A stretch of DNA of 50,758 nt from a bacterium (GTDB lineage: Bacteria > Bdellovibrionota_C > UBA2361 > OMII01). The DNA lies in NCBI GenBank assembly GCA_017853605.1, contig JAFMJG010000003.1:1-50758 (forward strand), read 5' to 3'. Position 1 is the stretch's first letter. Every line of letters starts with the position of its first letter. Under the pieces are notes generated by a model that did no database searches, had not been told where the DNA came from, and saw nothing but the letters and a program-made list of their open reading frames with translations. The position numbers were made by a program, and so were the translations under genes. Shown piece by piece: positions 1,949 to 34,466 of the stretch.

Positions 1949-3880
1949 ATGATCAAGCTGATCCACAAGTACAAGCGCTCAATCACCATCATCTTTATCC
2001 TCTTGGCATTCTGCTTTGCGCTGAGCGGTGTTGGCATCGACACGCTACACGACGGCAACCGCGCCCAGCGCCCCGCCATCTCCGTCAATGACCGGCAAAT
2101 TTCCCAGGTCGAGTTTCAGCGCACCGAGCGCAGCATCGAGGAGCGCTACCGCAGGATGTTTGGCACAAACTTTGAGCAGTTCGTGCAGGCATTCGGGGTC
2201 AACATCGCCCAGCAGGCGATCGACCAGAGTATCGACTCTGCGCTCCTCAACCAGGAGGCTGCCGGCATCGGCTTCGCTGCAGACGACGAGGTTGTGAGGC
2301 GCTTTATCCTCGAGAAGGTTTTCGCCGACGTGCCGTACGACGAGGGGAGATTTCGCGCCATCCTGCAGTCAGCCGGGCTGACCTACCGGGAGTTTGGCAG
2401 CGAGATTAAGGACGAGTACTCCAGGGAGACTCTCGCAAACGTCCTCCGGGACTCTGCCTACGTGAGCAAGCGGGACGTGGATGCGCAGATGGCGCGCCAA
2501 GAGACCGCCTACTCGGTGCTAGGGGCAGTCGTGCGAACTTCGAAACTGCTGGCCTCCGCACCGCAGCCCTCTGAGGAGCAGCTGAAGGCCTTCTACAGCG
2601 CTAACGGCTCGCGCTTTGAGGTTCCTGCCCAGGTGTCGTACAGCTTCATTGAGCTGGCACCCTCATCGTTCGAGAAGGAGGTCCAGGTCTCGCAGCAGGA
2701 TATCGAGGTGTACTACACCGAGAACTCTGGAAGCTTCACAAACCCAGAGCAGGTAAAGGTGCGCGAGATCACGGTTCTCTACCCAAAGGGCGCCGATGAC
2801 AAGGCGAAGGAATCGGCAAAAGCGCGCGCCAAGCAGGCCCGCGACGAGGCTGTCGCGGGAAAGGTCTTTGCGGATCTCGTGGCGAAGTATAGCGACAATG
2901 CGGACCTCAAGCGCTCGGGCGGCGATCGCGGCTGGGTCTCGCGGGGCCAAGAGTCGCCACAGTTTGAGCGCGTTGCCTTCGCCGCTGAGCCGGGAAGCGT
3001 GGCGGAGCTGATTGAGACTCCCGAAGGGTTGCGAGTCATCAAGGTTGAGGAGCGGAAGGCTTCCAGCCTAAAGCCGCTCGACTCCGTCCGGGCGCAAATT
3101 GAGTCCGCGATCCGCAAGGCTGAGGCCCCCTCGTACGCAGCAGCCAGGGCGCAGGAGATCCTCAAGGCTGCGCGCCGGGATGGCAAGCCTATCCTCGAGG
3201 TCGGTGGCGCTGCGGGCTTGCCGGTCAAGGACTCTGGCGGCTTGGTCGCGTCAGGCAAGGATCCCTCGCCCTCGCTTGCAGGGCTCTCTGCAAAAGTTCT
3301 CGACCTGTCTAGCAGTGATCGCGCGGGGCTTTCTCTCGTTGAGGCAGGAGACACCTCGGTCATCGTTCAGGTGAAGGAGTACAAGGAACCGTCAGTGGCG
3401 CCCTTCGCCGAGGTGCGCCCAAAGATCCTTGAGGCGGTAAAGGCTCAAGAGGCGCAAGGTGCGGCGGAGAAGCTGTCGCAGCAGATCTTGGCTGCCGTCC
3501 AGGGAAATCCTGCGAGCTTTGAGGCTGAAGCGAAGAAGCTTGGCGCTGAGATTGTGGGGCCAGTGGAGCTCTCGCGGGCCAATCCTAAGAGCTCTGAGCT
3601 GCAGGATCTTCCCAACCAGGCGTTCAACGCGATCTTCGCCACGGAAGCAGCCCCGTCGGTGCTGCAGCAGGCCTACCAGACCGAGTCGGGCTACGTAGCG
3701 CTCTCAGTTGTGAGCGTCAAAAAGCCTGATCCAACCAGGAAGCGAACCGCTGCTGAGGTGGCTAAGTTCCGCGCTGAAGCGAAGCAGCAAGCCGTGCGGG
3801 ATGCCATGGAATCGGCCCTAACCGTCCTCAAGACCTCCTCTGTAATCGACGTAGATCCAGCGCTCCAGCTCAAGCAGTGA
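1949..3880 (+). CDS. ppiD: Membrane-anchored peptidyl-prolyl isomerase, PpiD/SurA-like
   Basis: This 643-residue protein starts with a short basic cytoplasmic stub and one TM helix at about residues 9-30, so the bulk faces the periplasm. A SurA-N-like helical chaperone region covers roughly residues 40-190. One parvulin (PpiC) domain lies at about 265-360, with the family's 'A..FADLV.KYSDN...K..GGD.GWV' pattern. A long helical C-terminal region follows. This order matches PpiD, which assists folding of newly exported and outer-membrane proteins. The many barrels and multihaem proteins in this window are plausible clients. The start follows a short AT-rich gap. Whether its isomerase domain is catalytically active cannot be told by eye. 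Confidence 0.85.
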   Translation: MIKLIHKYKRSITIIFILLAFCFALSGVGIDTLHDGNRAQRPAISVNDRQISQVEFQRTERSIEERYRRMFGTNFEQFVQAFGVNIAQQAIDQSIDSALLNQEAAGIGFAADDEVVRRFILEKVFADVPYDEGRFRAILQSAGLTYREFGSEIKDEYSRETLANVLRDSAYVSKRDVDAQMARQETAYSVLGAVVRTSKLLASAPQPSEEQLKAFYSANGSRFEVPAQVSYSFIELAPSSFEKEVQVSQQDIEVYYTENSGSFTNPEQVKVREITVLYPKGADDKAKESAKARAKQARDEAVAGKVFADLVAKYSDNADLKRSGGDRGWVSRGQESPQFERVAFAAEPGSVAELIETPEGLRVIKVEERKASSLKPLDSVRAQIESAIRKAEAPSYAAARAQEILKAARRDGKPILEVGGAAGLPVKDSGGLVASGKDPSPSLAGLSAKVLDLSSSDRAGLSLVEAGDTSVIVQVKEYKEPSVAPFAEVRPKILEAVKAQEAQGAAEKLSQQILAAVQGNPASFEAEAKKLGAEIVGPVELSRANPKSSELQDLPNQAFNAIFATEAAPSVLQQAYQTESGYVALSVVSVKKPDPTRKRTAAEVAKFRAEAKQQAVRDAMESALTVLKTSSVIDVDPALQLKQ

Positions 3881-6198: not shown

Positions 6199-8298
6199 TC
6201 ACTTCTCCGTCAGGTTCCAAACCGGCGAGAAGCCGGTTTCGCCAAGCTGCTTACTAGATGCTATCCGGGCGCAATATGCCCGACTGACGGGGTCATCGGC
6301 AAATGTCGCGAAGAGCTCCCCTGCTTCCACGACGTTGCCAGCCTCAAAGAGCTGCCTCGCCCGGTCGAATTCGCCGAGGCGCGAGAGGATCGCGCCATCA
6401 AGCCGGGGATGAAGCGGCTCGAAGAGCTGCACAGGCTCCTGGCGGCCAACAACCCTCGCCTGGCCCACCGTTCGCCATGCAAGCTCGTCTCCCGCCCGCC
6501 GGCGGGTGCTTCCTGAGACGAGCACATTCGTCCCGAAGACCTTGTTGACGCCCTCGAGGCGCGATGCAAGGTTGGCGGCGTCGCCGATAACGGTGTAGTT
6601 GAAACGGGTCGATGAGCCGAAGTTTCCCACGGTCACCGGCCCGGTGTGGATCCCTATGCGCATGCGGAGCGAGACGCCAAAATCCCGCTGAAACATCTGG
6701 CCGAGCTCCCGAAGGCGAAGCTGGCACTGGATTGCCGCATTCACAGCCCGCTTCTCGTGGTCGTGCACCTGCAGGGGCGCGTTCCAAAAGGCGATAATTG
6801 CGTCCCCCTCGTACTTGTCGATCGTCCCACCGGAGGCCAGAAGGATGTCTGTCATCTCGGAAAGGAACGTGTTGAGGAACGCCACGAGCTTCGCCGGCTC
6901 CATGCGCTCAGAGATGCTCGTGAACCCGGCGATGTCGGAGAAGAAGATCGTCAGCTCCCGCCTCTCGCCCCCCAGCGCCAGGCTCGAAGGGTCCTTAACG
7001 ATCTGGTTTATCACCTCTGGAGTGACGTAGTGCTGGAACGCTGCCTTTATGAATCGGTGCTGCCGGCCCTCAACCCGGTACTGGAGCAGAAACACCAACA
7101 GGAGCAGGTAGAGGCTCGAAAGGAGCGGGGCAACGACCGGAAGCCACCACCCCTGGGCAGCAAACGCGAAGCTTGCGCCCGCCCAAGCAAGCACGGCACC
7201 CAAGATGATCGCGGCCTGGTAGCGCGTTGCCCTCAGGCTGACAAGGGCAACGAGCCCGAGAAAGAGCGCCGTGAGCGCGAGTGCCGCTGCAGGCGGCACC
7301 TCACGGTAAAAGCTCGTGTGGAGGAGGTTGTCGAGAACCGTCGCATTGAGCTCAACCCCCGGATAGTTTCCCGCCACAGGAACCGGCCGCAGGTCGAGCA
7401 GCCCCGGTGCGTTCGTGCCGACAAAAACGTACGCATCCTTAAACACTTCAAGGGGGATGTCGGGCCTCTTTCCCTCACCGAGCTTCAGCCAGCTGTTGAT
7501 GACCGCCGCTATTGAGTACGTGTCGTAGGTCGCCTCCGGGCCGAAGAACCTGACCAGGAGCTTTCCGCCCTCTCCGGCCAGCGGCGCAACCTCCTCGCCC
7601 TTCCCAGACCCGGGATGCACGAGGGCATAGAGCGCCGCAGGAAGGCTCAGGACCGGTGTCTCGCCGACTCGCGCCCCGAGAGCAGCGTGCCGGAAGATCT
7701 TGTCGGCATCAGCCTCGGCAGACACGTTGCCGAGCGCTGGGCTAGCCTCGATAAGCATCGGTATCGGCAGGGTTGCCGACGGAAAGCGGGGGGACGCAAG
7801 GGAGGCGAGGAGGCGCTCGATCTCTCCCCTTCTCCTCTCTTGCGAGGACCGGAAGAGCTCCTCTGTTGCGGGATCACCATCGACGGAGTCACGCCGGGCG
7901 GATACCGCGCTCACAACCGGCAGTGAGCTCGCCACCACGTCAGCAAACTCCTTGTCGTCTCCGACGTGGGTTGAGCTCTCAGTAAAGAGCATGTCAAACG
8001 CCACGCCCCGCGCGCCGGCCCGCGCCAGGTAGAGGAGGACGGGATTGTACAGTGATCGCGGCCACGGCCAGTAGATCTGCTCTGTGCGCGCATAGTGGTC
8101 GATTGAGCTCTGGTCGACCATGATGATCTTAATCTTTGGGTCGTGAGCCTCCGGGCGAACAAGGGCCTGCTGCCGCATGTCCCAGGTCTTGCTCTCAATG
8201 TCCGCAAGCAGCCCTGAGCTGAGCAGAAGCCACGCCAGCAGCGCGGCAGAGAGCCATATAAAAAACACCCCCCGCTGTAGCTGTCTCGCCGCGCTCAT
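6199..8298 (-). CDS. CHASE2-domain class III adenylate/guanylate cyclase
   Basis: This protein of about 699 residues has one N-terminal TM helix, a CHASE2 sensor domain facing the periplasm (includes KIIMVDQSSID, the PWPR segment and GVAFDMLF), two to three further TM helices, and a class III cyclase domain in the cytoplasm. Catalytic metal-binding Asp residues are visible in FFSDIAGFTS and KYEGDAIIAFW; NYTVIGDAANLASRLE is the family's transition-state region. Substrate choice (ATP or GTP) is not certain. The open frame extends upstream to a GTG at 8346, but AAGGAG at 8308-8313 lies 9 nt before the ATG at 8298, so I chose that start. It makes the second messenger that cNMP-binding domains would read, and such domains occur in the electron-transfer operon at 28140. 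Confidence 0.92.
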   Translation of the reverse strand: MSAARQLQRGVFFIWLSAALLAWLLLSSGLLADIESKTWDMRQQALVRPEAHDPKIKIIMVDQSSIDHYARTEQIYWPWPRSLYNPVLLYLARAGARGVAFDMLFTESSTHVGDDKEFADVVASSLPVVSAVSARRDSVDGDPATEELFRSSQERRRGEIERLLASLASPRFPSATLPIPMLIEASPALGNVSAEADADKIFRHAALGARVGETPVLSLPAALYALVHPGSGKGEEVAPLAGEGGKLLVRFFGPEATYDTYSIAAVINSWLKLGEGKRPDIPLEVFKDAYVFVGTNAPGLLDLRPVPVAGNYPGVELNATVLDNLLHTSFYREVPPAAALALTALFLGLVALVSLRATRYQAAIILGAVLAWAGASFAFAAQGWWLPVVAPLLSSLYLLLLVFLLQYRVEGRQHRFIKAAFQHYVTPEVINQIVKDPSSLALGGERRELTIFFSDIAGFTSISERMEPAKLVAFLNTFLSEMTDILLASGGTIDKYEGDAIIAFWNAPLQVHDHEKRAVNAAIQCQLRLRELGQMFQRDFGVSLRMRIGIHTGPVTVGNFGSSTRFNYTVIGDAANLASRLEGVNKVFGTNVLVSGSTRRRAGDELAWRTVGQARVVGRQEPVQLFEPLHPRLDGAILSRLGEFDRARQLFEAGNVVEAGELFATFADDPVSRAYCARIASSKQLGETGFSPVWNLTEK

Positions 8299-8355
8299 GA
8301 TCGCCATCTCCTTGGGGCGCGAGCCCCTCAGAGCAGGGCATACCACGCCTCAGCC

Positions 8356-23296: not shown

Positions 23297-24970
23297 CTAG
23301 CGAGTTAGGCTTTTAAGGTACGAGGCGATATCTTCCTTTCTTTCGCCCGGAAAACCAAGCGAATCGTGGTACGAGTGGCACTCTGTGCAGTCCGAACGCA
23401 CAAAGCCTTCAGTATCCTCGCTGCGGTGGCACTCCTGGCACAGCTGCTTGCGGGGCAGAAGAAGATCTTTTGTCTCTGACGAGCCACGGGCTTTTTCGTG
23501 GCACGACTCGCAGGTGAACTTCTCGTGCGCGCCGTGGCTGAAGTGCGCCTGCGGAAACCACACCGAAGGGATGTTGGGCTCAGCGACAGAGTAATGGGCA
23601 TTCGACACAGTCTGCTCGCTACTTGGCTTTTCGGCTATTGAGTGGCAGAGAAAGCACGCTGTTTTCGTGAAGAGCTGCTTTTCAGCATCTCGGGCGCTGC
23701 CCAGCACCGCAGCGATGCTCTGTGGCACCGGAGCCTCCTCCGCGCCAGGAACGGAGCCAGGCATGTCTCGCGTGGAGTCATGCGCAGGGTTCGGCACCGA
23801 CTCATCTTCCTTAAGCAGCACAACCTTTGAGTATGCGGCAAAGAGCGACTCGAACACAGATTCAGCGTCCCCGTGCGGAACCTCTTCGTACGGAAGTCGC
23901 TCGTCGAAGCCCAGCGAGTGGCAGTCGCGGCAATGCTTGTCAAAGCGTATCGGCTCCAGCTGCCTGAAGTCGGGGCCAAGCCTGTGGCACGCGCCGCATT
24001 CAAGGGTGACAGGCCCCTCTTTGCCCCTCAGGCCGCGCTTGAGGTGAAGCTTATGGTTAAGCTTGATGCGGGACGAGTCGACCGCGCGCTCTTGGTCATC
24101 GAGGCTAACGCGGGACACCGTCCCTTGGGGGCCAGGGACTGAAATTTTGAACTGCGGGTGCAGGTCAAACGACGGCACGTTCTCTGCCGTGGCTCCAGGC
24201 TGCAGAGACGCCATCCTCGCGTGGCACGAGGAGCACTGCCGCGAGTCGTGAGTGATGACCCCTGAGTCCCCGTTGTGCTCCATGTGGCATTGGGCGCAGC
24301 GCGCCTGGAGCGCCGGATGCCGCGCATTGAAATCCCCGATGCCCTTGGCGTGCTCAGTCATGTGGTGGCAGGTGAGGCACTGGGCGTCCTGCACCGGCTG
24401 GAAGGGCTTGGCGTGGCATTGTCCGCAGTCCTCCTCGATGAGCTGGTGCGCCCTCGAGACCGGCCCTGTGCTCCACGCATCTTTTTCGCCAGAGCCAATC
24501 GGCAGGGCGAGGAACACCAGCGAGACCAAGACGGCAGCTGCCAGCGAGAGCATCCTCATCGGCGGCACGTGGGACTCAATCCCGAGCGCCGCGAGGCCCC
24601 TTGCCGCGAGATCCTGATCCTGCGCCGGCTGGGCGAGCCCCTCGACCAGCGTAAGCTCCGCCTCCTGCCCCTGCAGCCGCACGCGAGCCTCAATATCGCC
24701 CAGGGACACCACGTCGCCGTCGGCAAGCGCAGCTCGAGCAACACGCCGCCCATTGACCCGGATTCCCGCAAGGCTCCCTAGGTCAAGCACGGCGAGTGCG
24801 CCCCCTTCCCAGGCGAACCGCGCATGCTCTATTCCGATGCGCTGGCCAACGAGGATGACGTCGGACTCGCCGCCCCTGCCCAAGACTATTTCTTGTTGCT
24901 CAACCCGGGTCTCGCTGCGCTCGACTGAGCCGTTGCTCCCGTGCCTCTCGTGGATGATTCGGAACGCCAT
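23297..24970 (-). CDS. FHA domain - TM helix - periplasmic decahaem cytochrome c
   Basis: This 557-residue protein has no N-terminal signal. Residues about 20-100 form an FHA domain (VLGRGGESDVIL, IEHARF, DLGSLAGIRVNG). A TM helix lies at about 139-159. After it come ten CXXCH sites from C182 on: CGQCH, CLTCH, CAQCH, CSSCH, CGACH, CRDCH, CFLCH, CESCH, CQECH and CTECH. The FHA domain should thus be cytoplasmic and the haems periplasmic. The usual FHA Ser before the conserved His is Gly here (GIEH), so classical phosphothreonine binding may be weakened. It can pass electrons from the membrane to the outer-membrane module. Gaps are 3 nt and 12 nt to its neighbours. Confidence 0.9.
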   Translation of the reverse strand: MAFRIIHERHGSNGSVERSETRVEQQEIVLGRGGESDVILVGQRIGIEHARFAWEGGALAVLDLGSLAGIRVNGRRVARAALADGDVVSLGDIEARVRLQGQEAELTLVEGLAQPAQDQDLAARGLAALGIESHVPPMRMLSLAAAVLVSLVFLALPIGSGEKDAWSTGPVSRAHQLIEEDCGQCHAKPFQPVQDAQCLTCHHMTEHAKGIGDFNARHPALQARCAQCHMEHNGDSGVITHDSRQCSSCHARMASLQPGATAENVPSFDLHPQFKISVPGPQGTVSRVSLDDQERAVDSSRIKLNHKLHLKRGLRGKEGPVTLECGACHRLGPDFRQLEPIRFDKHCRDCHSLGFDERLPYEEVPHGDAESVFESLFAAYSKVVLLKEDESVPNPAHDSTRDMPGSVPGAEEAPVPQSIAAVLGSARDAEKQLFTKTACFLCHSIAEKPSSEQTVSNAHYSVAEPNIPSVWFPQAHFSHGAHEKFTCESCHEKARGSSETKDLLLPRKQLCQECHRSEDTEGFVRSDCTECHSYHDSLGFPGERKEDIASYLKSLTR

Positions 24971-24973
24971 ATC

Positions 24974-25789
24974 CTACCGGTAGAAGAGCACGACAACGAT
25001 GTGGATAGCGAGCGCAACACACAGCGCGCACGAGAGGGGGATGTGGGTGTAGAGCCAGAGCTTAAGCAGCGCCTTGATCCGCGCCTGCTCCAGGAGCGAC
25101 CGAATCAGGTCAAGCCGCTGGTCGAGCAGCCCAATCATTGCTATGGCATCACGCTGCTCCGCATCGGAGATAACTGAAAGCATCACTGCTGCCGCTTTTT
25201 GGTTCACCGACGGGTGCCGCTCCTTGACGATAATTGACCAGAGTGAGAGGTCGAGCGGCACATCAAAGGCGTTGTAGACCTGGAGGAAGGCTTCGCTCTT
25301 TCCCGCGCAGAGTGCCTCTGCCTGCTTGCCAAGCTCCCCTATTCGCTCAAGCATTGTCGCGTCCGTTGCCCCTCCCCGGTGCGCCGTGATCTTGCCCGAC
25401 AGCCGCGAGTAATTCACTGCCCCCCAGATGCCGGTGGCGATGGTGCCTACCATCAGGACGTAGGCGGTTGTGTGGACATCAAGCCCGAAGCTAAATCCTG
25501 AGTGGAGGGGCACGAGCAGAATGAGCCCGATACCGATCCAGACGTGGGCAGCAAGCCAGCCTTCGACGGTTCCCAGCGAGGATCTGTAGGCCCGCTTGCG
25601 GGCCGCATACGCCATGAGCAGACCGATGCCGAGAGCGGCGATCGTGCCAAAGGCGTACCCAAGCGCCGTGCCGCCATTGTTGCCGCCCACGGGGCTATTG
25701 AGGGCATACATCGTGGTGCACACAAGCAGCCCAACCGCAGTGATCCACAGCCACCTAAACCGCTTGTAGGAAATGAACGTCTCCTGCAT
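24974..25789 (-). CDS. Putative di-haem b membrane subunit
   Basis: This 271-residue protein has about five TM helices (near 12-30, 43-62, 80-98, 105-127 and 245-269) and a cytoplasmic or periplasmic helical loop at 140-240. Two helices each contain a His pair exactly 14 residues apart: H82/H96 and H249/H263. That H-x13-H spacing is the one used by cytochrome b of bc1 complexes to hold two stacked b haems, so I infer a di-haem quinone-reactive subunit. No family is recognised by name. The frame is open back to 25918, inside the previous gene, but ATG 25789 has an upstream GAGG and gives a clean start with an 8-nt gap. Confidence 0.75.
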   Translation of the reverse strand: MQETFISYKRFRWLWITAVGLLVCTTMYALNSPVGGNNGGTALGYAFGTIAALGIGLLMAYAARKRAYRSSLGTVEGWLAAHVWIGIGLILLVPLHSGFSFGLDVHTTAYVLMVGTIATGIWGAVNYSRLSGKITAHRGGATDATMLERIGELGKQAEALCAGKSEAFLQVYNAFDVPLDLSLWSIIVKERHPSVNQKAAAVMLSVISDAEQRDAIAMIGLLDQRLDLIRSLLEQARIKALLKLWLYTHIPLSCALCVALAIHIVVVLFYR

Positions 25790-25797
25790 CTCGCCCC

Positions 25798-28140
25798 TCA
25801 AATCCTCTTTAGGCCGGCTATCTCCACCAGCTTGCTCGAGTGCACTCGCATGGCGGCGCCCGTTGGGCATGCCCGCACGCACGCCGGGCCGCCTGGCAAG
25901 CTGGCGCACATGTCGCACTTTGCCGCTTTTGCTGGCCCCTTCTCCTTCTTCGCCAGGCCCAAAAGTGCCCGGAGCGAGAAGCCGTCACTGGCCTTGTCGT
26001 ACACGATCTTGATTACGCCGTAGGGGCAGTTAGTGACGCAGTTCCCGCAGCCGATGCACGAGTCGCGGATGATCACCTCGCCACTTGGAGTGCGGGTGAG
26101 CGCATCCGGAGGGCAGTCGGTCATGCACAGGGGATTCTCGCAGTGGCGGCACGAGATCGGAACCTGAATCGAGGCGAAGCTCTTGCCCCCCTTCCGATCG
26201 AGGCGAGAGTACCCGTTGTGGGTCGCGGCGCACGCAGCCTCGCAGTTGTCGCACGAGACGCAGAGGTCTGAGTTGATGAGAAGCACGTTCTCGGCATCCG
26301 AGAGCCCCTGCTGCATCATGAAGTCGAGGAGCGAGCCTGCTTCCTCGCTCCAGTCCGCCATCGCATTCTGCACCCGACGGCGGTCCACCTCGCGATGGAT
26401 GGATGCGCGCGTGTCCGGGAACTCCCGCAGCAGCTGGATCACGTCGTCCTTTTTTAGGGCGATCAGGTCGCATGCAACAGCAGCCGTGCATGTTGCCGAC
26501 CTCGGGGTGGGCTCCTCACTGACTACGGCCATCTCGCCGATGTAGCTGCCGGCCGGGACATAGGTGCGCGCGATGTCCTTGCCGGACGGCGCGAGCCGCG
26601 ACACCTTGACTGAGCCCTTGCGGATAACGTACGCCGCATCTCCGAGATCCCCCTCCCTGAAGATGACCTCCCCCTTCTTGAAGCTCTTCATCTCGGCACG
26701 CTTCACGAGCGCCTGGAGGAATGGCTCTGGCGTGTCCGGGAACACGGCGGTCTGGAGGGCGCGAAACATGAAGAGCTCATCGAGGGCGCGCTTGACCGAT
26801 CCAACTGAGGCGATCAGCTTGAGGACCTGCTTGCGGGGCGTCTCAAGCAGGAGCGTTCCGGGCGCAGCCACGCGAACCGTTGCCACACGGCGCCTTCCAG
26901 AGAGGAGGCCCATCTCGCCGAAGAACTGCCCCTGCCCGAGCTTGATTGTGCGCCCTAGCCCTATCTCTATCTCGACCGCGCCTGACACAACGCTGAAGAA
27001 CGTGTCGGTGTAGTCGTTCCTCTCAAAGACAACTGCCCCAGGCTCCTTAAGGTGCAGCGTCGAGTCGATCAGCATTTCACGAAGCTGGGGCGCGCTGAGA
27101 TCCTTAAAGAGCGGAAGGTTTGCCGATATTTTCGGGAAGTTTTCGGCAAACCCTCCTGGCAGGCCCACGAACCGCTCCTCAAGAAGCGGCTGGTCGGCAG
27201 GCTGCACCGGCTCGCCGCGAATGTGCTCGATAACCTCGTAGCCCTGGTTCATGGCCTGCTTAATAAGCGGATAGCCGATCAAGGCGCCGAGCACATAGAG
27301 GCCTGGAACGCTCGACTCGTACCGGTGGCTCACGGACGGCACAGCATTGGGATCAGGGCTTGGGAAGGTGATGCCCGCTGTCTCAAGAAACTTGCGCGGC
27401 AGGACGCAGCCGAGGCGGGCGATGATGTGGTCACACGGCACCGTGACCTCGCCATCGGGGGTGTTGATATGGGCGGACTGGGGCTCGATTCGCGCCACCG
27501 TCGCGCCATAGAAGCACCGTATCTTGCCGCCCTCAATTGCCCCCAGGATCAGCTTCGAGTTGGCGTCCTTCGCGCGCGCAAACTCAGTTCCGCGGTTCAC
27601 GAGCGAGACCGTGTTTTTTTCGGCGAGCGCCAGCGCGTTCTCAATAGCGGCGTCTCCGGCGCCAACCACGATGATGTGCTTGCCGCTGAAGGCGCCCGGA
27701 TCTGAGAGCGTGTACGCCACGTTGCCCTGCTCCTCGCCTGGCACCCCGAGCTTGCGCGGGGCACCCTGCACGCCAATCGCCAGAATGACGTGCTTGGCAG
27801 TGCAGGTTCCCCCCTGGTACCCGACCTCAAACGTTTCGCCCTTTTTCTCAATCCGAAGAACCTCTGCCCTCCTGAGGTTGGCCTTCAGCCTTCCCAAGTC
27901 CTCCTGGTACTCCTGCAGGATCTTTTCCCGGCTCCCAGCCTCAAAGCGGCAGTGGGCCCGGAGGGGAAGCCGCCCAGGCTCCGCCATGACATGCTTGCGC
28001 AGCTGGTAGTCATAAATCGTGTTGGCGATCTCGCCCTTCTCGAAAAGGACGTGGGGGAGGCCGTGGTGCGCTGCGCTTGCGGCGGCAGCGAGCCCGGCTG
28101 GGCCGGCTCCGATAATCGCAATCTCAAAATGCTCGGACAT
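25798..28140 (-). CDS. Flavoprotein - two cNMP-binding domains - four-cluster ferredoxin fusion
   Basis: This 780-residue protein has no signal or TM segment, hence is cytoplasmic. Residues 1-315 are a two-Rossmann flavoprotein resembling YpdA/thioredoxin reductase-like enzymes (GAGPAG at 11-16, VGAGDAA at 159-165) without the CxxC disulfide of thioredoxin reductase. Two cyclic-nucleotide-binding domains follow, at about 345-460 (FGEMGLLSGRRRVATV) and 465-590 (YIGEMAVVSEEPTPRSAT). Residues 620-765 carry four cysteine clusters of DmsB/HybA type: CVSCDNCEAAC, CRHCENPLCMTDC, CIGCGNCVTNC and CDMC...CVRAC. It may link NAD(P)H, or another donor or acceptor, to the membrane b subunit. The start at 28140 fits the flavoprotein fold; 28173 is also open. 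First gene of the operon. Confidence 0.92.
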   Translation of the reverse strand: MSEHFEIAIIGAGPAGLAAAASAAHHGLPHVLFEKGEIANTIYDYQLRKHVMAEPGRLPLRAHCRFEAGSREKILQEYQEDLGRLKANLRRAEVLRIEKKGETFEVGYQGGTCTAKHVILAIGVQGAPRKLGVPGEEQGNVAYTLSDPGAFSGKHIIVVGAGDAAIENALALAEKNTVSLVNRGTEFARAKDANSKLILGAIEGGKIRCFYGATVARIEPQSAHINTPDGEVTVPCDHIIARLGCVLPRKFLETAGITFPSPDPNAVPSVSHRYESSVPGLYVLGALIGYPLIKQAMNQGYEVIEHIRGEPVQPADQPLLEERFVGLPGGFAENFPKISANLPLFKDLSAPQLREMLIDSTLHLKEPGAVVFERNDYTDTFFSVVSGAVEIEIGLGRTIKLGQGQFFGEMGLLSGRRRVATVRVAAPGTLLLETPRKQVLKLIASVGSVKRALDELFMFRALQTAVFPDTPEPFLQALVKRAEMKSFKKGEVIFREGDLGDAAYVIRKGSVKVSRLAPSGKDIARTYVPAGSYIGEMAVVSEEPTPRSATCTAAVACDLIALKKDDVIQLLREFPDTRASIHREVDRRRVQNAMADWSEEAGSLLDFMMQQGLSDAENVLLINSDLCVSCDNCEAACAATHNGYSRLDRKGGKSFASIQVPISCRHCENPLCMTDCPPDALTRTPSGEVIIRDSCIGCGNCVTNCPYGVIKIVYDKASDGFSLRALLGLAKKEKGPAKAAKCDMCASLPGGPACVRACPTGAAMRVHSSKLVEIAGLKRI

Positions 28141-28203
28141 GCAGCCTGCCAGCCCCCAGCCGGAATTCTCCATCGGCCGTAATCAGCCGCCAGGAGAGGC
28201 ACA

Positions 28204-28406: not shown

Positions 28407-29684
28407 ATAGAACGCTTTTTTATCCGACTGATCGCCGTCGTTGCCTGCGTCTTTCCCGCCGCTGCTGAGGGATCGCCCGACACGTACGTGGGCACAGGCT
28501 CCTGCTCGTCATCTACCTGCCACGGCAGCGTGCGCGCCCTGCGGGGATCAAACGTCCTGCAAAACGAGTACTACACCTGGCTGAAGCACGACAAGCACTC
28601 AGGGGCCTTCACGGTGCTCCTCAAGCCTGACGCCCGCCGAATGGCATCGCTGCTTAACCTCGGGGATCCTTCACGCGAGCCCCTCTGTTTACAGTGCCAC
28701 GCCACCTACGTTCCAGACGCCGAGCTGCGCGGCGAGAAGTTTGACATTGAGGACGGGGTCTCGTGCGAGTCGTGCCATGGGGCTGCGGGGCGGTGGCTTG
28801 AGTCGCACGCCGTTGCTGGCGCCACGCATGCGGAGAATCGTGCCCGGGGCCTAACTGACACGGTGTCGCTGACAAGCCGCGCGGCGCTTTGCCTGTCGTG
28901 CCACTACGGGGACGGCGACAAGCGGGTAACGCACGACCTCTACGGAGCCGGACACCCTCGCCTCAGCTTTGAGCTCGACACCTTTGGCGTCATGGAGCCC
29001 AAGCACTGGGTCATAGATGACGATTACCTCAAGCGAAAGGGCCCGTACGTCCCCGTGGCCGCATGGATCATCGGCCAGCAGGCGCTGGCGGAGGGGATCG
29101 TTCGCACCCTCAGCTCGCCTGAGCTTTCGCGCAACGGCATGTTCCCGGAGCTCTCGGTTTTTGACTGCTACTCGTGCCACCACAGCCTCTCTGAGGAGCA
29201 GTGGAAGCGCCGCACCTACGGCGGAAAGCCCGGCCGGCTCGCAGTCAACATAGCTCCGCTCCTCATGATCAGGGAGGCGCTCGTGGCGCTGAACCAGCCG
29301 GATGCGCCGGAGTTTGCAGCCCTCGTATCGACGCTTCATGACTCATACCAGTCTGACGGGGCCCCTCAGGCGCTCGCGCGACTGCAGGCCCTCCTGGCGG
29401 GCAGCGTGGGCGATTTCGCTAGGCGCATGCCGGGAGATGAGGCAGCGTCCCTAGCGATCATGCGGCAGTTGGCTTCCTTCGGCGCACAGGCAGAAGCGCT
29501 AAAGTACGAAGCTGCAGAGCAGATCGGAATGGGCATCCAGGCTGCGATGGCCACCTCGCCCCGCCTTTCAGCGAAGTTTAAGGCTCCGCTAGACAGGCTC
29601 TTTGTCACGCTTGAGAGCGCGCGGAGCTTCAGCCCCGCGAAATTTAAGGAGGCCGCGTCACAGCTCGCCCTTAAGCTTTCCTGA
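28407..29684 (+). CDS. Pentahaem cytochrome c, c554-like, apparent ATA start
   Basis: The open frame has no ATG, GTG or TTG before GTG 28488, yet the codons upstream spell a convincing signal peptide (IERFFIRLIAVVACVFPAAA) with GAGAGGGGG just before ATA 28407 and an in-frame stop at 28389. Starting at GTG 28488 would give a haem protein with no export signal, which cannot mature. From ATA it is about 425 residues. Haem sites are one CX4CH (CSSSTCH), CLQCH, CESCH, CLSCH and CYSCH. The first 250 residues resemble cytochrome c554-type proteins; the last 150 are helical and haem-free. It diverges from the electron-transfer operon and could be a soluble periplasmic carrier for it. Confidence 0.85.
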   Translation: MERFFIRLIAVVACVFPAAAEGSPDTYVGTGSCSSSTCHGSVRALRGSNVLQNEYYTWLKHDKHSGAFTVLLKPDARRMASLLNLGDPSREPLCLQCHATYVPDAELRGEKFDIEDGVSCESCHGAAGRWLESHAVAGATHAENRARGLTDTVSLTSRAALCLSCHYGDGDKRVTHDLYGAGHPRLSFELDTFGVMEPKHWVIDDDYLKRKGPYVPVAAWIIGQQALAEGIVRTLSSPELSRNGMFPELSVFDCYSCHHSLSEEQWKRRTYGGKPGRLAVNIAPLLMIREALVALNQPDAPEFAALVSTLHDSYQSDGAPQALARLQALLAGSVGDFARRMPGDEAASLAIMRQLASFGAQAEALKYEAAEQIGMGIQAAMATSPRLSAKFKAPLDRLFVTLESARSFSPAKFKEAASQLALKLS

Positions 29685-31211: not shown

Positions 31212-34160
31212 CTAGTTAAGGAGCGCTAGCTTGCGCTGCTCATCAGCAGAGAACGCTACCCCGGCAACGCGCGCCAGCATCTGGGCTTGGCTTAGGTCCC
31301 TGAGCGGCAGCCTGTCTGACTGAATGCGCAGGAACTCCTCGCGTGCCTCCGGAAAAAAGCCGCTGGCCGCCAGGGTCATTACAAGCCGCCCGCGGCAGTC
31401 TGCGCTCTCAGCGCGCATATCCCTAAAACACGGCGCCGCATACGCCCTAATCCTCGCAGCATCGAGCGCCAACAGGGGCGCCCCGTACTCAGCGATCCAG
31501 TCAAGCCCCAGCGAAGCTTCCTCAACTCCCACAGCCGGCACAACCGCCTGGCTCGAGCCCGGGGCGAGCGAGAGGAAGAGGTCCTTAACCGGCTGCGTCA
31601 CCGTCTTGTTCGGGGGGATCTCTCCCCGAACTACCATCGCCACGAGCGCCTGCCGGCAGAGCTGCGTCTGCTGGCTCCACGAGCTGTCAGCGCTCGTGTT
31701 GCCGGCTGAGCAGTGAAGCAGCGCCAATGACCGCAGCTTGTCCGCCTCCGCCTCACTGCCGTACGCAATGCCCATGAGGGTCCTGGGAAACGCGCGCCGT
31801 GAGTAACCACGGTGCTCTGGAAGCATCGAGAACCGTGCCGCATCCACAGAGGCCTCCGAAAAGAAGTCTCGCCCAGCCCGGTATGAGAGCGTTGGGTGCC
31901 CCAGCGTTTGGAGCGGCGCGCCGCCTAGCCCCTCCCAAGGCATCGGGACTTCGCGCGCCAGGAGGTCTTTTGGCGCGCTCACGCCGACATCTGAGAGATC
32001 GTCGCGGATTGCATCACGCCCGAACCTCTCTCTCATGCGCTTGAGCGACTGCGCATCGAGGGGCTCCTTAGAGCCGATGAGCACAACATCGCTGTCGCGC
32101 TCAAACAGGTGCACGTTCGGGAAGGAGGCATGGAACGTTTTCAGGACGAGGGCCATAGTGTCCTGCGAAATCGAGTACGTGTGAAACCACTGGGCGTAGA
32201 TCCCTCCGGGAGCAAGCTTGTCCCGGGCGATGTCGAAGAACTCCTTCGAGTAGAGCCGCTCCACTCCGCCAACCCACGGGTTGCTCGGCTCAGAGGCGAT
32301 GATCGCGTAGCCGTCCCGGCTCTCCAGAAGAAACCGGTACGCGTCCCCAAGGTGCCAGGAGATCTTTGGGCTCCGGGATGCGCCGGAGTTCTCGCCATCA
32401 AAGAGGGGCGAGAAGCGCCGCACCGCCGGCGATATCTCCAGTATGTCGATGCGGTCAACCTCATCGTACTTGGCAAGGGATCCCACCGTGATGCCAGTTC
32501 CAAAGCCAACAACCGCAGCGCGCCTGCTCGACGAGGACTGCAGGAGCCCAGGAAGGTGCGCCATCAGCTTCGTGGTAATCCTGTCGCCCGAGCGGGTGCT
32601 GCCGTCTGACTTTCCGTTCACGAGTATCGAGCGCGACCCGTCGCTAGACTCCATCACGGCAACTGTTGTGTTGGGGTCGTCCTTATACGCGAGGATGTCT
32701 TGGGAGCCCATAAATGTGCCGTAGAAGGCGGCGAATCCGCTGTAGCTCTCATCGAGCGCCTTGGTCAGGCGGAAGGTGCCTCGGGCAAATGCGTACTCGG
32801 GCCACGGCATGGCGACCAGAGGGAAGAAGGCTGCTGCCACAGCGCTGGCCCGCATCGCTGAGAACCCCCTCCCGGGCTCCCGCCAAGCGATGGCGAGGAG
32901 CACAAGCCCTGCAGCAACAACACAGCCCAGCAGCACCTCTGCAAGGTTGAGCACGTAGAGCGAGAGGTAGCCGCCAAGGATCGCGCCGACAACGCAGCCA
33001 GCGGTGTTTGCGCCGTACACGAGCCCAACGCGGCGCCCCAGCGACTCCCGGCGATCCCTGCTCTCGCGAAAGAGGATCGGAAGCATGGCGCCAATGCACC
33101 CCACAGGCAGCAGTATTAGCAAGCATAGGGCGACAAAAGCCGCCGCGTTGTACAGCCAGAAGCTGGGGCCAACCGAGGTGAAGAGCGTGCGCAGCATGTG
33201 GCTTCCGTAAGGAAGAAAGGGGGCGGCGAGGTAGATGCCGATGAGGCCTGCCACGATCCCCGCCTGGTTGGCAGCGAGCGAGACCCGCCCGCCGGAGCGC
33301 TCAGCGATTACCCACGCCCCTAGGGCCAGCACGAGGATAAAGGCGCTCAGCACCATCGCAAAGGTGTACACCGACGCACCGAGGGCGAGCGCCGTAATCC
33401 GCAACAGGACCGTCTGCAGCGTGATGGAGATGAAGCCGCCAGCGCACGCAAACCCGGCAAGCGCGGCGATGCGCTGCCTAGAAAGGGGCTCGCCCGAGCC
33501 ATCGGCGCCCTCCGCCCCAGGCTGAGCCCTCCCCTCCGACCCGAGGAAGGAGCCGAGCGCGCCGAAGCACGCCCCCGCCCCAAGGTTCAGGGCGCCCATC
33601 ACGAGCATTGTGCGCTCAAGGCCGAGGGAAGGAATAAGCACAAACCCGCCAAAGAGCGCCCCGAGAAAGGCGCCAAGCGTGTTGACGATGTATATTTTGG
33701 CGTGAAACGGGGCTGCATCCTCAACGCCAAGCGAGAGCCCGTGAGTCAGGAGCGGAAGCGAGGCGCCCATCATGACCGTAGGGGCGCCGATGAGCAGAAC
33801 CGCAATGACGATGTCAGCGAAGAGCGAGCCCTCGAAGGAATGGTGCTCAAAGTGAAGCCGCCACAACACGCGCTCAAGGAGCGGAAAAAGAAGGGCCCAG
33901 GCGCCGATCAGGCCCTCAAGGAGAGCGCACCCCATCACAGACTGGCGCGGTGATCGTCCTGCTGAGCAGCGGCCGAAGAGGGCGTAGCCCGCAGCAAGCC
34001 CTCCGAGAAACGTTGCGACTATCAGCGCTGCAGAGCGCGCTTGGCTGCCGAGCAGATTCGCTAGGTAGTATTGCCAAGTCACCTCGTACACGAGCGCTGT
34101 GAAGCCCGTGATCACCGTTAGGGCCAACGCCGAAACCCGCACTGCCGAGATAGCCTTCAT
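31212..34160 (-). CDS. Multi-TM protein fused to a spermidine-synthase-like domain
   Basis: This 982-residue protein starts at ATG 34160, 8 nt after AAGGAG. About 12-14 TM helices fill residues 1-460, resembling the membrane part of SpeE-fusion proteins. The soluble domain at about 490-700 has the methyltransferase-like fold of spermidine synthase (VVGFGTGITVGSL, ILEISPAV, GDAYRFLL). The acidic catalytic pair expected for aminopropyl transfer is replaced by ASEPSNPWVGG, as in many fusion members, so true spermidine synthesis is doubtful. A further C-terminal 280 residues are helical, with several Cys (for example CRQAL, CFRDM), and are unassigned. It may act on a membrane-linked substrate; the role is unknown. 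Confidence 0.82.
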   Translation of the reverse strand: MKAISAVRVSALALTVITGFTALVYEVTWQYYLANLLGSQARSAALIVATFLGGLAAGYALFGRCSAGRSPRQSVMGCALLEGLIGAWALLFPLLERVLWRLHFEHHSFEGSLFADIVIAVLLIGAPTVMMGASLPLLTHGLSLGVEDAAPFHAKIYIVNTLGAFLGALFGGFVLIPSLGLERTMLVMGALNLGAGACFGALGSFLGSEGRAQPGAEGADGSGEPLSRQRIAALAGFACAGGFISITLQTVLLRITALALGASVYTFAMVLSAFILVLALGAWVIAERSGGRVSLAANQAGIVAGLIGIYLAAPFLPYGSHMLRTLFTSVGPSFWLYNAAAFVALCLLILLPVGCIGAMLPILFRESRDRRESLGRRVGLVYGANTAGCVVGAILGGYLSLYVLNLAEVLLGCVVAAGLVLLAIAWREPGRGFSAMRASAVAAAFFPLVAMPWPEYAFARGTFRLTKALDESYSGFAAFYGTFMGSQDILAYKDDPNTTVAVMESSDGSRSILVNGKSDGSTRSGDRITTKLMAHLPGLLQSSSSRRAAVVGFGTGITVGSLAKYDEVDRIDILEISPAVRRFSPLFDGENSGASRSPKISWHLGDAYRFLLESRDGYAIIASEPSNPWVGGVERLYSKEFFDIARDKLAPGGIYAQWFHTYSISQDTMALVLKTFHASFPNVHLFERDSDVVLIGSKEPLDAQSLKRMRERFGRDAIRDDLSDVGVSAPKDLLAREVPMPWEGLGGAPLQTLGHPTLSYRAGRDFFSEASVDAARFSMLPEHRGYSRRAFPRTLMGIAYGSEAEADKLRSLALLHCSAGNTSADSSWSQQTQLCRQALVAMVVRGEIPPNKTVTQPVKDLFLSLAPGSSQAVVPAVGVEEASLGLDWIAEYGAPLLALDAARIRAYAAPCFRDMRAESADCRGRLVMTLAASGFFPEAREEFLRIQSDRLPLRDLSQAQMLARVAGVAFSADEQRKLALLN

Positions 34161-34466
34161 GATGTGCGCTCCTTGCCCTCGGGCCTGCTCCACTAATGCC
34201 CTGTTCGCCTAGCCCTCTCGAGGCAGCTTCCCCTAAGTACCCTGAAAACCACGCTCTCGGAAGCTCCGTACCCGACCGTGTTTACCCCCTTTACCTCTCT
34301 CGATAGAATGCCGAAATACCATGAGTACTGGGGCCGCTTTAGCGGCTGCCAGGCAGGTCGGGAGATGGGGTGATGGCGCTCGCTACGTTGTTGCGGTGCG
34401 GAGCCATACAAATAGGCGACGCTGCGCCGCAAGCGCCATCGGGTGCCTGTTGTTCGGGAGAGAATC
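34161..34466. other. Intergenic region between divergent genes, one small hairpin
   Basis: About 300 nt separate the fused membrane protein from the STAS-like gene. The only structure noticed is GCCGC (34333-34337), loop TTTA, GCGGC (34342-34346). GGGAGAG lies just upstream of ATG 34467. No convincing promoter or small gene was recognised. Confidence 0.4.

Follow-up and report, generated by a model that had tools for sequence, protein, structure and literature searches.

An FHA domain fused to a membrane-anchored decahaem cytochrome in a putative bacterial electron conduit

The Hmc and Tmc complexes combine an Fe-S subunit, a cytochrome b and a multihaem cytochrome c. One operon of the window (the whole 50,758-nucleotide stretch of DNA that was analysed) likewise encodes a cytoplasmic 4Fe-4S protein, a membrane b-type subunit and a periplasmic multihaem cytochrome c together, but differs in that its Fe-S protein also carries FAD and a pair of cNMP domains, its cytochrome has an FHA domain, and putative outer-membrane components are encoded as well. 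With the curated Hmc models, HmcA was not among the matches of the FHA-decahaem protein, and HmcB scored 41.4 bits against 420 on the Fe-S protein. The operon may also resemble the porin-cytochrome and Ext clusters of Geobacter and Shewanella, in that a putative outer-membrane barrel and multihaem cytochromes are encoded in one operon. Its candidate porin-cytochrome features are a porin-like ORF and a decahaem protein with LVIVD repeats; the latter matches ExtM weakly and in part (score 66.9, cut-off 800). We know of no described porin-cytochrome or Ext cluster with inner-membrane-anchored FHA-decahaem and cNMP-FAD-FeS subunits. In the library searched, no paper joined an FHA domain with a multihaem or decahaem cytochrome; FHA domain and c-type cytochrome co-occurred there in one paper, on corynebacterial two-component systems.

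In GarA and OdhI, the FHA domain is used for cytoplasmic control of metabolism. The FHA consensus comprises Gly, Arg, Ser, His and Asn, and the phosphopeptide is contacted by Arg, Ser and Asn (PMC4037201). OdhI binds its enzyme via its FHA domain (PMC10415282), and OdhI in its unphosphorylated form inhibits a metabolic enzyme (PMC9769921); on the strength of these accounts, FHA docking of a metabolic kind has a precedent. A cytoplasmic FHA domain adjoining one transmembrane (TM) helix, as in the window protein, is found in proteins of the YscD/PrgH type (PF16697), in GltG and in TagH.

The third gene of the window operon encodes an FHA domain, a single TM helix and a periplasmic domain with ten c-haem motifs (Table 1). 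The first-pass annotation had proposed this architecture without stating the strand, and Pfam, hydropathy and the CXXCH count uphold it; the gene is on the minus strand, and a plus-strand reading of the same interval was ruled out, its frame being full of stops. The FHA profile score, which that annotation had named as a check, was 43.6 bits (PF00498, E = 4.2e-11), above the cut-off of 20.7, and the domain also exceeded the cut-off for PF16697 (34.3 against 33.2 bits). A structural model of the FHA domain built from seven sequences (pLDDT 93.1, pTM 0.85) contained 11 strands, in keeping with the eleven-strand β-sandwich of FHA domains. Foldseek comparison of this model with the PDB returned GarA (6i2p, E = 5e-8), OdhI, TB39.8 and EmbR among the best matches, and Rad53 was matched too; by sequence, the PDB matches were GarA (6i2q, E = 3e-9), TB39.8, Rv1747, DgcB and OdhI. 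A chance FHA match was rejected, since the Pfam score, the PDB sequence matches, the model and Foldseek all support an FHA domain, and an assembly chimera was rejected because the same fusion occurs in many independent genomes. The GltG and TagH models gave weak scores, far under their cut-offs, and in contrast to the secretion and motility FHA proteins the window protein has a decahaem periplasmic part in place of a secretion-ring or gliding part, in an operon without secretion genes.

The ten CXXCH motifs span residues 182–532 and follow the export/anchor helix, as in multihaem c-type cytochromes. Their Cys and His are invariant in all ten motifs across five aligned homologues, and Cytochrome_C7 of Pfam matches the protein (1.6e-9). 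A sequence search of the haem domain against the PDB gave no match at E ≤ 0.01, and prediction of the full-length protein gave no confident model (pLDDT 42).

The TM helix is the sole strongly hydrophobic segment of the protein (mean Kyte-Doolittle 2.56), and no CXXCH was found N-terminal to it. As c-haem attachment takes place in the periplasm and there is one helix only, we infer that the FHA domain faces the cytoplasm, the orientation first proposed for it. In 13 of the 14 own-phylum FHA-decahaem proteins that span the helix, K+R residues are more numerous on the FHA side; the window protein departs from this, with one such residue on that side against two. Ten Acidobacteriota relatives are built as FHA-TM-10 haems-TM-FHA, with both FHA ends on the same side (L089, L090, L092, L093, L096, L129, L130, L132 and L134, plus L133, whose second FHA lies in a separate open stretch owing to an in-frame stop). 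A second FHA domain behind a second TM helix fits an N-in/C-in arrangement and supports the cytoplasmic placement. In L089–L096 and L129–L134, the linker before the second FHA domain carries repeated T-x-M-like motifs, which are possible phosphorylation sites.

The operon is tight, with all genes on the minus strand and gaps of a few bases. Its order is the YpdA-like FAD/twin-cNMP/4Fe-4S protein, the 4-TM putative di-haem b subunit, the FHA-decahaem protein, the lipoprotein, the putative porin and the decahaem-LVIVD protein. The first of these, which is kept in homologous operons, matches Pyr_redox_3 (3e-35), cNMP_binding (2e-36, two stretches) and Fer4_7 (2e-11) in Pfam; its best NCBIfam match was YpdA, under the YpdA cut-off. 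For the 4-TM subunit, the listed ORF from 25918 is too long, homologues beginning at an ATG near 25789, and no Pfam family scored above cut-off. It has four invariant His in the pairs 83/97 and 250/264 (numbering of the first alignment row), each pair 14 residues apart, which is the spacing of di-haem cytochromes b. The porin-like protein had no match in Pfam. The putative lipoprotein is unusually large, and its position beside multihaem genes is conserved.

Taken together, the operon probably encodes a cytoplasm-to-outer-membrane electron conduit, with the window protein as its membrane-anchored decahaem subunit. Electrons would pass from NAD(P)H through the FAD/4Fe-4S protein and the di-haem b subunit to the periplasmic c-haems, and from the periplasmic haem domain to the putative outer-membrane barrel and the second decahaem protein; the flow might also run in reverse. 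About 7.5 kb past the operon end, the window also encodes a CHASE2-adenylate/guanylate cyclase (6199–8346, minus strand). The genome has three class III cyclases, and this one might supply the two cNMP domains with their ligand. A separate 993-residue protein (31212–34193, minus strand) joins a multi-helix N-terminal part to a spermine synthase-like domain.

Table 1 Positions of the FHA-decahaem cytochrome, its parts and the neighbouring genes in the window
Feature	Position	Strand	Evidence
FHA-TM-decahaem cytochrome, 557 aa	23297..24970	-	
FHA domain, aa 1-103 (Pfam aa 28-91)	24662..24970	-	Pfam, PDB sequence matches, model, Foldseek, residue counts
Single transmembrane helix, aa 140-158	24497..24553	-	Hydropathy and flanking charges
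Periplasmic decahaem domain, aa 166-557, ten CXXCH	23300..24475	-	Pfam, motif scan, homologue alignment
FAD/NAD(P) (YpdA/thioredoxin-reductase-like) protein with two cNMP-binding domains and 4Fe-4S ferredoxin-type domains, 791 aa, putative electron input	25798..28173	-	
4-TM putative di-haem b-type subunit	24974..25789	-	Invariant His, homologue starts
Putative lipoprotein with HbpS-like domains, 626 aa	21404..23284	-	Pfam HbpS-like 1e-20; lipobox-like LLGCGGG N-terminus
Putative outer-membrane beta-barrel (porin-like), 602 aa	19590..21398	-	Signal-like N-terminus, C-terminal aromatic residue, conserved position
Exported decahaem protein with LVIVD repeats, 1245 aa	15853..19590	-	Pfam LVIVD 1e-19, Cytochrome_C7 4e-9; ten CXXCH
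Cytochrome c554-like protein, 4 CXXCH, divergent	28488..29684	+	Pfam Cytochrome_C554 7e-12; place conserved

To place the fusion among its relatives, we compared loci from genomes that are mostly metagenome-assembled, with ORF-based gene calls made by profiles and checked against Pfam for a subset. When a single genome of each species was scanned, four close homologues (46–57% identity) with the same operon were found. The b-type subunit was found in 18 of the 46 genomes of the window's own phylum, and a homologue of it in 74 of 396 Acidobacteriota genomes. The FHA-decahaem fusion is present in nearly every complete own-phylum locus, and a fused N-terminal FHA domain was counted at 15 loci of this phylum and 13 of Acidobacteriota. 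On a tree of the concatenated Fe-S, b and decahaem domains, the own-phylum loci except L052, together with L089–L097, form one clade with support of 100/96; L052 is a paralogue outside it. Judged by these counts, the fusion is old and is conserved across two bacterial phyla; the gene order of the operon is kept as well.

Other arrangements of the FHA domain were observed. It is carried by the cNMP/4Fe-4S protein in L007 and L052, and by a FAD protein in L102–L121. One Acidobacteriota locus type has FHA on both ends of the decahaem protein with a soluble FHA protein nearby, and another has tandem-FHA and FAD-FHA-FHA proteins next to an FHA-less decahaem protein. On the concatenated tree, the fusion at L117 and L119 stands apart; at these loci cNMP, Fe-S and b-type domains lie in one 820-residue chain, and the adjoining FHA-multihaem protein has an FHA domain with Ser and Asn kept. 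In L120, L123 and L124, also from Acidobacteriota, proteins with 22–24 CXXCH are encoded next to a protein distantly homologous to the b-type subunit.

Within the 100/96 clade, FHA was lost twice. The L049 and L050 operons encode the same decahaem protein with no FHA domain and no upstream room for one, and keep the rest, which argues that the domain is dispensable for electron transfer itself. The b-type subunit of the FHA-less L049 operon (2292–3200, minus strand) has an extra C-terminal CXXCH, possibly an added c-haem. These two losses, and the degenerate phosphopeptide-contact residues described below, would suit a domain with a structural role in dimerisation or assembly, or a remnant that is in slow decay and binds no specific ligand. 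Against this, FHA is retained in most loci of two phyla, and its sequence is better conserved than its surroundings: pairwise identity is 38.5% in the FHA domain but 22.7% in the linker next to it, and within the domain conservation is higher in the three binding loops (0.66–0.84) than elsewhere (0.57), although binding-loop conservation is partly structural in any FHA domain. The domain, binding loops included, thus appears to be under purifying selection and not decayed, and we regard a structural or remnant role as improbable.

The pocket residues bear on what the domain might bind. The window FHA domain keeps Gly31, Arg32 and His49. The first-pass annotation was correct that Gly replaces the consensus Ser (Gly46, in GIEH), but missed that Asn is also replaced (Ala68), so that two of the three phosphopeptide contacts are lost; its suspicion of an altered ligand specificity is supported. 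The clade has 28 fused N-terminal FHA domains, all of which contain Gly, Arg and His, and none of which contains Asn. Eleven of the 15 own-phylum members retain Ser, against 0 of 13 from Acidobacteriota, and Gly takes its place in three of the 15 (the window, L003 and L006). Gly-for-Ser was on these counts rejected as the key pocket change, the uniform change being the loss of Asn; it appears to be a recent sublineage event, later than the Asn loss, and not a family hallmark. In comparison, none of the five consensus residues is missing from any C-terminal (second) FHA domain on the Acidobacteriota proteins (11/11), and Asn is present in 33 of 37 FHA domains encoded by separate genes nearby. 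Since Asn is absent from every fused first FHA domain of the clade and kept in nearly all of these controls, canonical phosphothreonine recognition was probably lost early, and we infer that the window FHA domain does not read phosphothreonine.

Several observations nevertheless favour a genuine reader, in which a kinase would phosphorylate a cytoplasmic partner whose binding switches the conduit on or off. The invariant Arg32 is compatible with an anionic or phosphorylated ligand and, with the Ser kept in most own-phylum members, counts against docking without phosphate; the canonical second FHA domain of the Acidobacteriota relatives also favours a reader. Kinases are present in all 46 own-phylum genomes, with four strong ones in the window's own genome, and in one Bryobacterales operon (L007, 11116–13380) the decahaem and c554-like genes enclose a PP2C and a Ser/Thr kinase gene of the same orientation. 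With kinases in every own-phylum genome, however, co-variation of kinase and operon is uninformative. Kinase genes near the operon were sought at the suggestion of the first reading: no kinase or phosphatase was found in the own-phylum operons examined, and near 37 Acidobacteriota loci nine kinases were observed against 5.4 expected (P = 0.10), which is not significantly above background, the expectation being approximate (at least 55 kinases in some genomes, as first-look candidates, with the observed number from a separate profile). The own-genome Ser/Thr kinase-FHA-PP2C cluster (G000:C177, L053 1669–6574) adjoins Flp/Tad pilus genes (RcpC/CpaB, AAA_31) and is not near the FHA-decahaem operon. 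A PP2C-kinase pair adjoins the operon in L112, and a receiver-kinase lies just downstream in L108; kinase proximity as such is weak evidence. With Asn lost throughout and Ser lost in the window, we consider a phosphothreonine-reading role for this domain unlikely. Of the kinase control first envisaged, the reading of phosphothreonine by the window FHA domain was thus not upheld, but phospho-control may still operate in the wider system, above all in Acidobacteriota.

The likeness to GarA and OdhI, which with TB39.8 are among the nearest FHA domains by sequence and fold, suggests another role: the FHA domain could bind a soluble enzyme of central metabolism without phosphate, as OdhI binds its enzyme, and so tie metabolic flux to electron export. 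GarA and OdhI are soluble, keep Ser and Asn and have a phosphorylatable N-terminal Thr, whereas the window protein is membrane-anchored on a cytochrome and has lost both residues; alignment shows the same difference between GarA and the window family. No conserved Thr was found in the 139 cytoplasmic residues, which argues against a GarA-type self-ligand and self-inhibition. The NCBIfam OdhI model scored 31.1 bits on the window protein, below its cut-off of 200, and the operon has no candidate enzyme. We therefore rate this role as quite improbable.

To the remaining reading, which we prefer, we give an even chance: the window FHA domain would be a phospho-independent docking module, and the protein the decahaem subunit of a transmembrane conduit. 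The cytoplasmic N-terminal FHA domain would recruit or position a cytoplasmic partner without phosphate. As a guess, we favour the FAD/cNMP/4Fe-4S input protein, encoded two genes upstream, because in sister systems FHA is found on just this subunit or on a FAD protein; alternatively, the partner would be some other FHA-binding protein. As a more tentative reading, less likely than not, the two cNMP domains of the input subunit and the cytoplasmic FHA domain of the decahaem subunit could jointly set electron exit, giving a signal-gated conduit; in Acidobacteriota relatives, the canonical second FHA domain and the kinase and PP2C of one operon would add a phosphorylation input.

Multihaem conduits are usually viewed as wires whose behaviour depends on redox potential and on how strongly they are expressed. 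A conserved family in which the input subunit bears cNMP domains and the decahaem subunit an FHA domain, both of them signalling modules, suggests that electron export is controlled at the protein level. The Acidobacteriota cytochromes that carry a degenerate first and a canonical second FHA domain on one chain offer a clean test of phosphate reader versus dock. A signal-gated conduit, if true, would mean that extracellular electron transfer is under direct post-translational control.
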